DNA of 28,347 nt, taken from IMG/VR virus record IMGVR_UViG_3300046694_000300, positions 1 through 28,347 of that record. One strand, 5' to 3'. This stretch comes from a virus. A program made the position numbers and the translations under genes. Position 1 is the stretch's first letter, and each line of letters starts with the position of its first letter. The notes under the pieces are model-generated. The model saw nothing but the letters and a program-made list of their open reading frames with translations, had not been told where the DNA came from and made no database searches. Positions 21,205-27,872 of this stretch are shown here, in pieces.

Positions 21205-22089
21205 TTATTTCGCGTTCAAGAACGGAATCGGCGCGGAGCCATACATCGTGGTCGGCAGTACCCCGTCCCAGCGGTTCGCCTTCGTTTGCTCTACCTCGAT
21301 ACGGCGCAGTTCCAGCACATCCTTGTTCTGCGCCAGGGCCGCGTTCTGCACACGCAGCGCCTCTGCCTGAGCCTTCGCTACCGTAAGGTTCGCGTAGGCC
21401 TCGCCGTCCGCCTTCGCCGACAGCGCCTTTGCTTCGGCCTCGGCGACCGCGACCTTCTGCTTCTGCTCGGACTCGACGGTCTTGAGCTTGTTCTCGGCGC
21501 CCAGGCGCAGCTGCTCTTGCGTGACCTTTTCGTTGATGGCTTTCATGTAGCTGTCGCCGAAGGAGAAGTTGCGCATGTCGATGTTGATCACGCTGGCGCC
21601 GTACAGGGCCAGCTTCTGGCGCAGCGCGGCGCTGATGTCGCCCGATACCTGGGAGCGCTTGCTGATCAGGTCCGGCGCCGTGTAGCGCGCGGTCACGGCC
21701 TTGAACACTTCAGCGGCGGCTGTCTGCACGTAGCTGGACAGGTTGCCATCGTGGCTATACTTCTCGTAGACCTCCGAAACTCGGTCGGTGGCGATGCTGT
21801 AGCGGACCGTCATGCTGACCTTGACCGGCTGCGTGTCGGCGGTGCTGCCGTCAGCGTTCTCGATGCTCGCTTCCTCGGCACGGATGCTGAAGATGGAGAG
21901 CTTCTGCCACGGCGGCACGAACGCGAGGCCCTCCTGTTCGACACCCTTGATGGCGCCAAACTGCGTTACCACGCCGCGCGAGCCGGTCGGCACGGACTTG
22001 AGCGGCCAGTACGAGAGGACGAGGATTGCGGCCACGACGCCGATGATGATGTTGCGGATCTGCTTGCTCGACAGGTTGGGGATATTCAC
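21205..22089 (-). CDS. Phage-encoded SPFH/prohibitin-like membrane protein
   Basis: A 294-residue protein with an N-terminal membrane helix (residues 12-29, NIIIGVVAAILVLSYWPL) followed by an SPFH domain: VPTGSRGVVTQFGAI, GLAFVPPW, then a DVSGDISAAL-type middle and INIDMRNFSFGDSYMKAI. The C-terminal part is a long alanine-rich coiled coil (QEQLRLGAENKLKTVESEQ, VAVAEAEAKALSAKADGEAY). SPFH proteins form large membrane rings and, in E. coli, HflK/HflC control FtsH, which degrades the lambda CII protein. A phage copy in the early region might modulate host FtsH or the membrane. GGAGAA lies upstream of the ATG. Identification of the domain is firm; the role is not. Confidence 0.85.
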   Translation of the reverse strand: MNIPNLSSKQIRNIIIGVVAAILVLSYWPLKSVPTGSRGVVTQFGAIKGVEQEGLAFVPPWQKLSIFSIRAEEASIENADGSTADTQPVKVSMTVRYSIATDRVSEVYEKYSHDGNLSSYVQTAAAEVFKAVTARYTAPDLISKRSQVSGDISAALRQKLALYGASVINIDMRNFSFGDSYMKAINEKVTQEQLRLGAENKLKTVESEQKQKVAVAEAEAKALSAKADGEAYANLTVAKAQAEALRVQNAALAQNKDVLELRRIEVEQTKANRWDGVLPTTMYGSAPIPFLNAK

Positions 22090-24770: not shown

Positions 24771-25313
24771 ATGAATACGAAAATTAAAGAAGTTCGACGA
24801 GGAATCGAAGATTGGCAATTGGAAGACGCAAATCGTCTCCGCGATATCTTTGATACCAGGAAGGCCGCAGCGAAGCGTGCTGGCGAACGTTTTACTCAGG
24901 AGACATTAGCCGAGGCGGCTGGCATCTCGTCACCGGCGATGGTCTGGCAGTATTTGAAGGGGCATCGCGCTCTAAACATCAAGGCGGCTGGGGGCCTTGC
25001 AAGAGCGCTGGGTGTACAGGTAAGGGAGTTCAGCCCTCGCTTGGCCGAAGAAATAGCAACGGTGGCGCCAGCGGTCTCTGGACGAGAAGAGGCACCAAAC
25101 AGCTACTCACTATCCGTCGAGAAGCTTCTTTTAATTCACGCCATTAATGAGCGAGAGGCCGCGATCTTGCGCAGGTATCGGATGGCTGACGCCGTTGGCG
25201 TGGAGATGATCGAAACTGCTGCCGCCAACGCCCCGAGAAGAAATCTCGGCTCCGTTATCAATGACGAGTCGCAAAGCCGGGCGCCTGGGACGGGCAGCGG
25301 CCATAGCTTGTAG
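24771..25313 (+). CDS. CI-type phage repressor
   Basis: A 180-residue plus-strand regulator, divergent from the Cro-like gene. The HTH is at about residues 41-70: FTQETLAEAAGISSPAMVWQ, then YLKGHRALN, in XRE style. The C-terminal part (about 100-165, KLLLIHAINEREAAILRRYR) is helical and has no visible S24/LexA-type peptidase motif, so induction by RecA-style self-cleavage is not expected; the antirepressor may serve instead. No ribosome site precedes the ATG, in keeping with a leaderless message. Its 3' end overlaps a minus-strand small gene. Confidence 0.8.
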   Translation: MNTKIKEVRRGIEDWQLEDANRLRDIFDTRKAAAKRAGERFTQETLAEAAGISSPAMVWQYLKGHRALNIKAAGGLARALGVQVREFSPRLAEEIATVAPAVSGREEAPNSYSLSVEKLLLIHAINEREAAILRRYRMADAVGVEMIETAAANAPRRNLGSVINDESQSRAPGTGSGHSL

Positions 25314-25939: not shown

Positions 25940-26161
25940 ATGAAAATAGCAAAACAGCCACTCAAGACGAAAGCAATCACAATTCGCATCCCCCTCGAAC
26001 TTCATGTTCAGCTAGCAGCTGACGCGGCAAAGCAAGCCTGGACAGTCAACGCCGAAATCAATCACCGCCTCCGGGCTCTGCCAGTACTGGAGCAGCTACG
26101 CATCCTGACCGATGAAGTCGCCCGCCTGAGCGCACTCCTCGAGAAACAGAAGTCGGACTGA
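25940..26161 (+). CDS. Arc-like ribbon-helix-helix regulator
   Basis: The 73-residue product shows the Arc pattern: KAITIRIPLELHVQLAADAA as strand and helix A, then WTVNAEINHRLRAL as helix B. Its C-terminal part (LRILTDEVARLSALLEKQK) is a short coiled coil. The GAGGAAG upstream in fact best serves an ATG 11 bases earlier, which opens a four-codon frame (MIAR) ending on TGA overlapping this ATG, so translation may be coupled. It is the first gene of the plus-strand accessory group downstream of the repressor and is its likely transcription regulator. Confidence 0.8.
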   Translation: MKIAKQPLKTKAITIRIPLELHVQLAADAAKQAWTVNAEINHRLRALPVLEQLRILTDEVARLSALLEKQKSD

Positions 26162-26234
26162 CTGCAACAATTGGATAGATTTCCAGTTGTCAATTTTCAT
26201 ATACTGGAAGCCTTTATCTCATCAGGCTCGCACA

Positions 26235-26603
26235 ATGAAAATAACGATCGCCGCCCTGCTCTGCGCATTGCTGGCCGGCTGCATGACACCCCACAATGTC
26301 TCGCACAAGTACACACCTACCCCACACCCTGAATTAGCAGGCTACTGGGTTGGCTCCAACGCCATCCAAACGCACACGATGTTGATCCGCGCCAATGGCA
26401 CCGGAGAGCTGTGCTACGAGTACCAGGGCAAGTACAAAAGCACGCCCGTCACCATCTCCGGCGATAAGATCATTGGCATGTCGGAAGCCAAGTTCACCGT
26501 CAACGCCGACGGCACAATCTCCCAATGCGCATGGGGCACTTGCGTCAATTTCAAGCGCACGGAACAGATTGCCGCGGCTTGCCGCGAATGGCTGGCCAAG
26601 TAA
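26235..26603 (+). CDS. Small lipoprotein
   Basis: The start at 26235 gives MKITIAALLCALLAGCMTPH, a lipoprotein signal peptide with lipobox LAGC (Cys16). The mature part is about 107 residues, beta-rich with SGDKIIGMSEAKFTVNADG, plus three other cysteines. Lipoproteins downstream of a phage repressor often mediate superinfection exclusion (for example Cor or Llp), which is an inference here. AGG precedes the start. It lies between the Arc-like gene and the ATPase gene on the same strand. Confidence 0.75.
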   Translation: MKITIAALLCALLAGCMTPHNVSHKYTPTPHPELAGYWVGSNAIQTHTMLIRANGTGELCYEYQGKYKSTPVTISGDKIIGMSEAKFTVNADGTISQCAWGTCVNFKRTEQIAAACREWLAK

Positions 26604-26680: not shown

Positions 26681-27544
26681 ATGGATTGTACGACTTCACG
26701 CGATATACAAGAGTGGCTGGACGAGCTGATGCAACTCAAGCAGGACGGGCGTTGCGCTGCGCCACGATTCGTTAAACCGTTTCATTTAGCTACGCTAGCG
26801 CACATGCTCCGGACGCTCAAGCTAAAGAAACTGCAACTGCCGGACAAGATTGCGCCATATGCGGATACGATGCGTCTCTGGGATGCGGTCGGTGTACCCT
26901 CACCTTTTGCCGAAAAGACGCGCGCGCCTGGTGGTCGATACCACCCAATACACCCGCTTAGAGATAAATCAACGATCGAAGAGACTGCAGCGTCGCTCAC
27001 CCAACTTTTCGCCACTGTGTGTCCTGACCCACAGACAAACAACGCGATTAACACCATGCTGCGAGAGCTCTTAGACAATTGCTACTCGCACTCCGCAGTA
27101 ACGGATGGTTTGTATGGCCTCATCTGCGCTCAGGTGTGGCCCGCAGGCCGCAAAGGCCAGATCACATTGGCCGATAGTGGCGTGGGAATTCGGAACTCGC
27201 TTGCACAAAATGCATTGCTTTCTGCTAGACTGGAAGCAGTGAATTCATGCGAATTAGCGACAGAATACGGCGTCACCGGTAAGCCAGGGCAAGGGCACGG
27301 AGGATATGGTTTAGCAGTAGCCAGAAAGTTGCTGGAGCAAAACAGGGGTTTTCTGCTAGTATTATCTGGGAATGAGTTGTTCTCGTCGACTGCTGGCATA
27401 GCCCGACGATTCCAAACCAAATCCAGTTGGGATGGAACGTTACTTGTGATTGAGTGGGACCTGGATACACCAATGGACATTGTAGCCGTCTATGAAAGCT
27501 TGCCACTACCTGAGGGGATGGAAGATGATGATTTCAACTTTTAA
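26681..27544 (+). CDS. GHKL-type ATPase, partner of a STAS-like protein
   Basis: A 287-residue protein with a C-terminal GHKL (HATPase_c) domain: N-box LRELLDNCYSHS (residues 127-138), G1-box LADSGVGI (163-170), G2-box GQGHGGYGLAVARKLLEQ (203-220) and a final WDGTLLVIEWD strand. Residues 1-110 are an unrecognised N-terminal domain with MLRTLKLKKLQLPDKI. Such ATPases resemble histidine kinases and the SpoIIAB-type anti-sigma kinases but have no phosphoacceptor domain. The gene end overlaps the STAS-like gene by about 20 bases, so the two are coupled. A nine-codon frame (MYLKPEIEN) with GAGG lies upstream. Function unknown; a switch or defence role is plausible. Confidence 0.8.
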   Translation: MDCTTSRDIQEWLDELMQLKQDGRCAAPRFVKPFHLATLAHMLRTLKLKKLQLPDKIAPYADTMRLWDAVGVPSPFAEKTRAPGGRYHPIHPLRDKSTIEETAASLTQLFATVCPDPQTNNAINTMLRELLDNCYSHSAVTDGLYGLICAQVWPAGRKGQITLADSGVGIRNSLAQNALLSARLEAVNSCELATEYGVTGKPGQGHGGYGLAVARKLLEQNRGFLLVLSGNELFSSTAGIARRFQTKSSWDGTLLVIEWDLDTPMDIVAVYESLPLPEGMEDDDFNF

Positions 27545-27842
27545 AATCAGGATCGAGGACTTGGCACCAGAAGTGACGACTCGCCCAGTTGGAGCGCAAG
27601 CCCGTAGACGCATACTGAACTTTCTGCGTGACTATGAAGTCATCGATATCGATTTCAGTGACCGAAGTTTAACCCCGTCATTTGCGGACGAGTGCATAGG
27701 CCAGCTGGCCGCCGCAATTGGCTTGTCCAGTTTCAAATCCAGGGTCAGGCTGAGTAACGTCAATGAAGCTAGTAGGTCTCTCATAAAACACGTCATTCTG
27801 ACGCGGTGCAATGAGAATCGAAGCCAACACGCACACGCTTAA
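27525..27842 (+). CDS. STAS-like DUF4325 protein
   Basis: Start at the ATG-ATG at 27525-27530 (MMISTFKIRIEDLAPEVTTR), with AGGGG upstream, inside the ATPase gene. The 105-residue protein has YEVIDIDFSDRSLTPSFADE (residues 37-56) followed by ASRSLIKHVIL, the signature of the STAS-like DUF4325 family as I remember it. STAS proteins of the SpoIIAA class bind anti-sigma kinases; pairing DUF4325 with a GHKL ATPase is a recurring but uncharacterised arrangement. It is the last gene before a strong terminator. Confidence 0.8.
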   Translation: MMISTFKIRIEDLAPEVTTRPVGAQARRRILNFLRDYEVIDIDFSDRSLTPSFADECIGQLAAAIGLSSFKSRVRLSNVNEASRSLIKHVILTRCNENRSQHAHA

Positions 27843-27849
27843 ACACTGA

Positions 27850-27872
27850 GCCCGCCACACGCGGGCTTTTTT
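27850..27872 (+). terminator. Intrinsic terminator of the accessory operon
   Basis: GCCCGC and GCGGGC (27850-27855, 27861-27866) with a CACAC loop and six T. It lies 8 bases past the STAS-like gene. Confidence 0.9.

Follow-up and report, generated by a model that had tools for sequence, protein, structure and literature searches.

The locus considered here raises the question of what a prophage gains from a GHKL ATPase gene (K) that overlaps a gene for a small DUF4325/STAS-like protein (S) and is closed off by a terminator directly afterwards. The pair lies in a viral stretch of 28,347 nucleotides (IMG/VR record IMGVR_UViG_3300046694_000300, positions 1 to 28,347), which as a whole is referred to below as the window. 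The initial annotation, made from the letters alone, likened the pair to SpoIIAB/SpoIIAA partner switching and stated that no function was known for it. The latter statement is outdated, since CapK–CapS and VapK–VapS–VapC are characterised relatives (PMC13373217). The links of kinase/STAS pairs to the control of immunity (CapKS) and to an anti-phage toxin system (VapKSC) are recent; the chemistry is newly known, and a closed phage cassette that carries no effector is a distinct form of it.

Sequence and predicted fold of K

The features of the pair, all on the + strand, are as follows.

26681..27544, +: K, GHKL serine-kinase-like ATPase, 287 aa (boxes, profile matches, predicted structure and Foldseek)
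Within K: residues ~1–86, shortened STAS-like N-terminal domain; residues ~96–260, GHKL domain
27065..27091, +: N box of K, E129xxxN133xxxH137 (invariant alignment columns)
27173..27190, +: G1 box of K, D165xGxG169I (invariant alignment columns)
27302..27313, +: G2 box of K, G208YGL211 (invariant alignment columns)
27525..27842, +: S, DUF4325/STAS-like protein, ~105 aa (PF14213, VapS profile match and conserved overlap)
27672..27692, +: motif of S, T50-P51-S52-F53-A54-D55-E56 (alignment of 65 DUF4325 sequences)
27848..27872, +: intrinsic terminator, GC-rich hairpin followed by a T run (RNAfold, -14.6 kcal/mol)

The claim of a GHKL ATPase with clear N, G1 and G2 boxes was confirmed at 26681–27544, and the key residues of all three boxes are invariant in the alignment out to the relatives from Clostridioides and Marinitoga phages. 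In SpoIIAB-type kinases, the N-box positions supply the catalytic base and a Mg/ATP ligand. Profile searches matched K to PHROG 3364, a GHKL phage family (E=1e-20), and to HATPase_c at a value slightly short of the Pfam cut-off (E=3e-5), and the kinase from a Deinococcus plasmid operon of the K+S+PIN type is a homologue of K (L050, E=9e-11). The AlphaFold2 model of K (pLDDT 84.5, pTM 0.87) was matched by Foldseek to SpoIIAB with a probability of 1.00 and a target TM of 0.72–0.74; the SpoIIAB structures concerned, which were crystallised with SpoIIAA, are the best target-normalised matches.

The N-terminus of K, which the initial annotation missed, is a degenerate and shortened STAS-like domain. 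Window-type K proteins are about 20 residues shorter in this region than aligned relatives with a full STAS domain, and the corresponding part of the model consists of helices only, with no beta strands. Neither a Pfam search nor the model gave a match to an HTH domain over the 287 residues of K.

S and the layout of the operon

The assignment of S as the DUF4325/STAS-like partner was borne out by a match to PF14213/DUF4325 that exceeds the Pfam cut-off (E=3e-8). S also matches PHROG 5816 (E=8e-4), a profile of 441 positions that holds DUF4325 at its C-terminal end and probably represents fused chains; both PHROG 3364 and PHROG 5816, the phage families that match K and S, are unassigned in function. 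When a profile of S and its relatives was compared with proteins of solved structure, the sole clear match was Escherichia VapS (PDB 9z7o, E=4e-11), a fragment of which itself matches PF14213 (E=9e-18). The resemblance to SpoIIAB/SpoIIAA is borne out by the fold of K and by the homology between S and VapS.

Because the conserved start of S is the ATG at 27525, located within the tail codons of K, and not the opening of the longest frame at 27492, the protein is about 105 residues long. The two genes do overlap, as had been described, by a conserved 20 nt in which the K terminus DDDFNF-stop reads MMISTF in the S frame. The same overlap is retained in the Herbaspirillum, Massilia, Undibacterium and phage-contig copies (L014, L015, L016, L017 and L009), which makes it very likely that K and S are translationally coupled.

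The serine of the S motif, Ser52, is the likely phospho-acceptor, as judged from its conservation and its place at the start of helix alpha-2, which was read from the model of a natural K–S fusion (L013). The helix-2 serine is kept in the window-type and in most phage-type S proteins of the 65-sequence DUF4325 alignment, in which the PIN-linked proteins carry their serine one residue earlier than the Ser52 column. An ungapped alignment likewise places VapS Ser48 opposite Pro51 of S, one residue ahead of Ser52. The S protein stops about 10 residues past the STAS domain, and its tail is short and poorly conserved in the alignment.

The terminator expected after the pair is the hairpin and T run at 27848–27872, which is absent from the output of a simple consensus scanner. 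Equivalents are found shortly 3' of S in L014, L015, L017 and L009, and a hairpin terminator lies within a few tens of bases of S in five of the seven copies examined. The window holds no same-strand gene 3' of S, and the approximately 500 nt that remain up to the window end contain no convincing gene. A promoter scan returned matches at chance level.

Genomic context in the window

Three genes upstream of the pair are relevant to its setting.

24771..25313, +: HTH repressor-like protein (Pfam search; no match to a LexA/S24 self-cleavage domain)
25940..26161, +: Arc/HicB-type ribbon-helix-helix protein (PF05534, E=4e-5; outside the conserved cassette)
26187..26603, +: small lipoprotein of the J517_1871 family, likely start 26235 (NF045606, E=4e-23; outside the conserved cassette)

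These profile matches agree with the neighbours named in the initial annotation (repressor, lipoprotein and Arc-like regulator), and its placement of the pair in an accessory slot of a temperate phage is supported by relatives that adjoin CI or integrase genes. The lipoprotein and the Arc-type protein were considered as partners of K and S and rejected, as neither is conserved with the pair in other pair-bearing elements. The reported lack of a sigma factor was confirmed around the pair, and no sigma gene was seen near the inspected window-type relatives.

The host of the prophage is a soil or water bacterium. In a search for the right-hand attachment site, the last 450–500 bases of the window gave no match in 294 Oxalobacteraceae genomes or in plasmids. 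Elsewhere in the window, an SPFH/Band-7 membrane protein adjoins the antirepressor (21205–22089; Band_7 E=5e-32, PHROG 200), and a tRNA-Thr (TGT) gene lies between the structural and early phage genes (7872–7947).

Distribution and mobility of the pair

In a scan of 84,980 species, which was pattern-based and may miss divergent copies, window-type K was confined to Oxalobacteraceae, namely Herbaspirillum, two Massilia, Undibacterium and Janthinobacterium. Two prophage records also bear window-type K, and a decayed copy is present in one further Oxalobacteraceae genome (L091). The association of K with S is not due to chance, since orthologues of the pair occur at 51–70% identity in several other elements.

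A reading-frame comparison of seven independent pair-bearing Oxalobacteraceae prophages or remnants (the Herbaspirillum region and record G006 being the same prophage) revealed that no genes other than K and S are common to at least three of them. The remainder of these phages is unrelated, with tails, terminases, helicase loaders and integrases from different families, and the GC content of the pair is below that of its surroundings at seven of eight loci. Given that K and S alone are shared in this way, are mostly AT-rich and bring their own terminator, the comparison indicates that they form a mobile two-gene cassette closed by that terminator. The spread of such a closed cassette among unrelated prophages, without any of the known outputs, marks the switch itself as a portable module.

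No PIN gene or other third gene is common to the window-type copies examined, in a comparison in which the window is a 28-kb fragment and some regions are remnants, so that a partner may lie outside the compared DNA. The fact that no third gene accompanies K and S disfavours a phage-encoded target, and a host protein is a more likely target than a phage repressor. In the Herbaspirillum prophage, a CheY-like receiver protein is encoded just 5' of the pair (L014:6824–7204, PF00072 E=3e-21).

Comparison with known kinase/STAS systems

VapKSC is an anti-phage toxin system in which VapS is the antitoxin (EMBO J 2026, PMC13373217). It has been proposed, without biochemical demonstration, that VapK phosphorylates VapS and thereby frees the PIN toxin VapC, and protection against phage Bas42 requires the VapS serine, VapC and F54 of VapK (PMC13373217). 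For CapKS, it has been demonstrated biochemically that CapK is an ssDNA-activated kinase and CapS its substrate, and the two proteins switch the transcription of immune operons (PMC13373217). Both kinases are thought to bind ssDNA in a groove between the STAS and GHKL domains, with VapK F54 and CapK W68 at the contact position (PMC13373217).

The window pair shares with VapKSC the order of a kinase gene and a small DUF4325/STAS gene, a STAS part in the kinase, degenerate in K, and a mobile or anti-phage setting. The conserved serine that begins helix 2 of S aligns one residue off VapS Ser48. Unlike VapKSC, the pair has no PIN nuclease gene and is followed directly by a terminator; the C-terminal helix of VapS reaches the VapC active site, whereas the tail of S is short and unconserved, and the STAS-like domain of K is shortened. 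Common to the pair and CapKS are a GHKL kinase preceded by a STAS-type domain and, in the gene that follows immediately, a STAS protein. However, K lacks the N-terminal HTH of CapK, S (105 aa, STAS only) lacks the winged-helix DNA-binding domain, and no immune operon lies 3' of the pair, nor is anything common downstream in its relatives. As defining parts of both systems were tested for and are absent, K and S are outside VapKSC and CapKS as defined. The pair is a sibling variant of VapKS and CapKS that probably uses the same chemistry, although sensing by K may differ from that of CapK and VapK, because the STAS-like domain of K is shortened and modelled without beta strands.

A more distant likeness exists to SpoIIAB–SpoIIAA, RsbW–RsbV and RsbT–RsbS, which extends to the folds (SpoIIAB for K; SpoIIAA and RsbS for the S-type domain), to the N, G1 and G2 boxes and to the serine beginning helix 2. 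The window pair differs from these systems in having neither a sigma factor nor a phosphatase gene, in the extra N-terminal domain of K and in its phage setting.

Membership in DISARM was also considered, as the PADLOC DrmA model PDLC02567 was weakly matched by window 26681–27541 together with 27492–27839, and rejected, as the match covers only the N-terminal GHKL–DUF4325 stretch of this one DrmA model of 1750 positions. Since PDLC02567 includes such a stretch, DrmA matches can be spurious for kinase/STAS pairs. The stretch also hints at occasional fusion of the pair to a DISARM-type helicase.

Proposed mechanism and alternative explanations

The interpretation favoured here, to which we would give an even chance, is that K and S constitute a lysogen-expressed kinase/STAS partner switch, akin to VapKS and CapKS, that acts in trans. 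It builds on the homology, the kinase boxes, the conserved serine, the overlap, the terminator, the mobility and the lack of a third gene, all of which were observed. K, as a SpoIIAB-like protein kinase, would bind S and, upon a stress signal, phosphorylate it on Ser52, a kinase–substrate relation suggested by homology and conserved residues. The trigger may be ssDNA arising from damage or infection, by analogy with CapK. S would serve as both substrate and output, binding and restraining a target in one phosphorylation state and releasing it in the other. The target would be encoded elsewhere and most likely be a host protein, and the net effect in the lysogen would probably be a conditional response of the host, for example the exclusion of superinfecting phages, an arrest of growth or survival of stress. 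If the target is indeed a host protein, the pair would represent a new way for a prophage to steer or protect its host.

A more specific version, which we put forward tentatively and hold to be somewhat less probable, is that the switch is complete in two genes, such that infection or DNA damage prompts K to phosphorylate S, which in turn exerts direct control over a conserved host protein. The phage would then either be commandeering host physiology or be running a defence whose effector the host encodes.

Among the rival explanations, the one that survives best, while still unlikely, is a two-gene toxin–antitoxin system in which a host protein would be the target of K, acting as a toxic kinase or ATP-binding inhibitor, and S would serve as antitoxin or decoy substrate. 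The pair is an overlapping, closed two-gene operon with no other partner, and the decayed copies also speak for this reading: in Janthinobacterium (L018:8001–8977) K is broken by an internal deletion with a frameshift while S is open, and in L091 (4957–6115) the K frame is interrupted and S is again open. S alone is thus tolerated, in a sample of two decayed copies, and this counts for the partner switch as well. However, the STAS protein of the characterised relatives is the substrate of the kinase, and toxicity resides in a third protein (PMC13373217). The fused STAS–GHKL–DUF4325 proteins found in phage contigs (L013:4939–6192 and L123:5023–6276) also fit a kinase and its substrate better than they fit an independently degraded antitoxin. 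The L013 fusion is modelled as STAS, GHKL and STAS domains in succession (pLDDT 79).

A lysis–lysogeny switch, in which S would act on the phage repressor, antirepressor or integrase and DNA damage sensed by K would induce the prophage without RecA-mediated repressor cleavage, is improbable. The pair does adjoin the repressor in the window, several relatives lie beside an integrase, and the repressors of both the window and L017 lack a match to the S24 self-cleavage domain. Related pairs also adjoin CI or integrase genes in phages of Marinitoga (MPV1, in the order CI, methyltransferase, ATPase, K, S, serine integrase), Francisella (KIRK, in the order CI, 293-aa protein, DUF4325, membrane protein, integrase) and Clostridia, including a Clostridioides phage, and the pair of phage contig L010 lies alongside a serine integrase. 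Nevertheless, the pairs of MPV1 and KIRK adjoin a repressor with an S24/LexA domain, neither repressor, antirepressor nor integrase is common to the pair-bearing elements, and decayed elements such as that of M. polaris retain an intact pair.

More improbable again is an anti-sigma partner switch, with K binding a host sigma factor in the manner of SpoIIAB and S acting as the anti-anti-sigma factor. It would accord with the SpoIIAB complexes as the best target-normalised matches of K and with the S-type domain, as the STAS part of the L013 model matches RsbS and SpoIIAA. The GHKL fold match is, however, generic across the superfamily, no sigma gene lies by any inspected window-type copy, and CapKS and VapKSC work without sigma factors.

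Least likely is a functionless orphan that has lost its effector, left over from a three-gene system with either a PIN or a membrane protein beside K and S: related third-gene operons are common and two window-type copies are decayed, but K and S persist intact in catalytic residues, overlap and terminator at 51–70% identity in several unrelated prophages, and the third gene is absent from every window-type copy examined.

Related architectures in other genomes

DUF4325 was found in 28 of 294 Oxalobacteraceae genomes, at 29 places that manual reading of the frames divided into approximately 11 single HTH–GHKL–DUF4325 proteins, nine loci of a K+S subfamily in which a gene for a small membrane protein comes next (this third gene being visible in eight), seven pairs alone, one fusion and one lone DUF4325. 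A survey of 398 Pseudomonadota genomes also encountered PIN-linked operons (L097 and L101, with PIN confirmed for L101).

The single-chain HTH–GHKL–DUF4325 proteins of betaproteobacterial chromosomes (L028:694–1701, L021, L022, L023, L026, L027, L029, L031, L033, L035 and L038) have mostly replaced the phospho-acceptor serine (QAF), and the L028 gene lies between queA-looking and tgt-looking genes. The L013 fusion is a moron between structural genes, and similar STAS–GHKL–DUF4325 fusions occur beside an alaS-looking gene in some genomes (L107).

A recurrent operon (L080:3772–5622, and also L081–L087, L095, L096, L099, L105, L108, L110 and L113) encodes a GHKL protein whose N-terminus often carries a basic extension, a DUF4325 protein and a third protein of 140–220 aa in which a single hydrophobic segment at the N-terminus is accompanied by a charged region. 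No PADLOC model matched the L080 proteins above noise and the third gene of L080 has no Pfam family; the operon gives the impression of a VapKSC counterpart whose effector is a membrane protein.

Finally, insert IFa of the Methanothermobacter prophage psiM100 (ORFB–ORFC–ORFD, L126:3656–6277) resembles the window pair in being a prophage insertion with a GHKL-like and DUF4325 pair, but differs in the third gene that follows. The 492-aa product of this gene matches the PADLOC candidate defence family PDC-M11A (E=2e-119), making IFa an instance of a kinase/STAS pair with a candidate effector in an archaeal virus.
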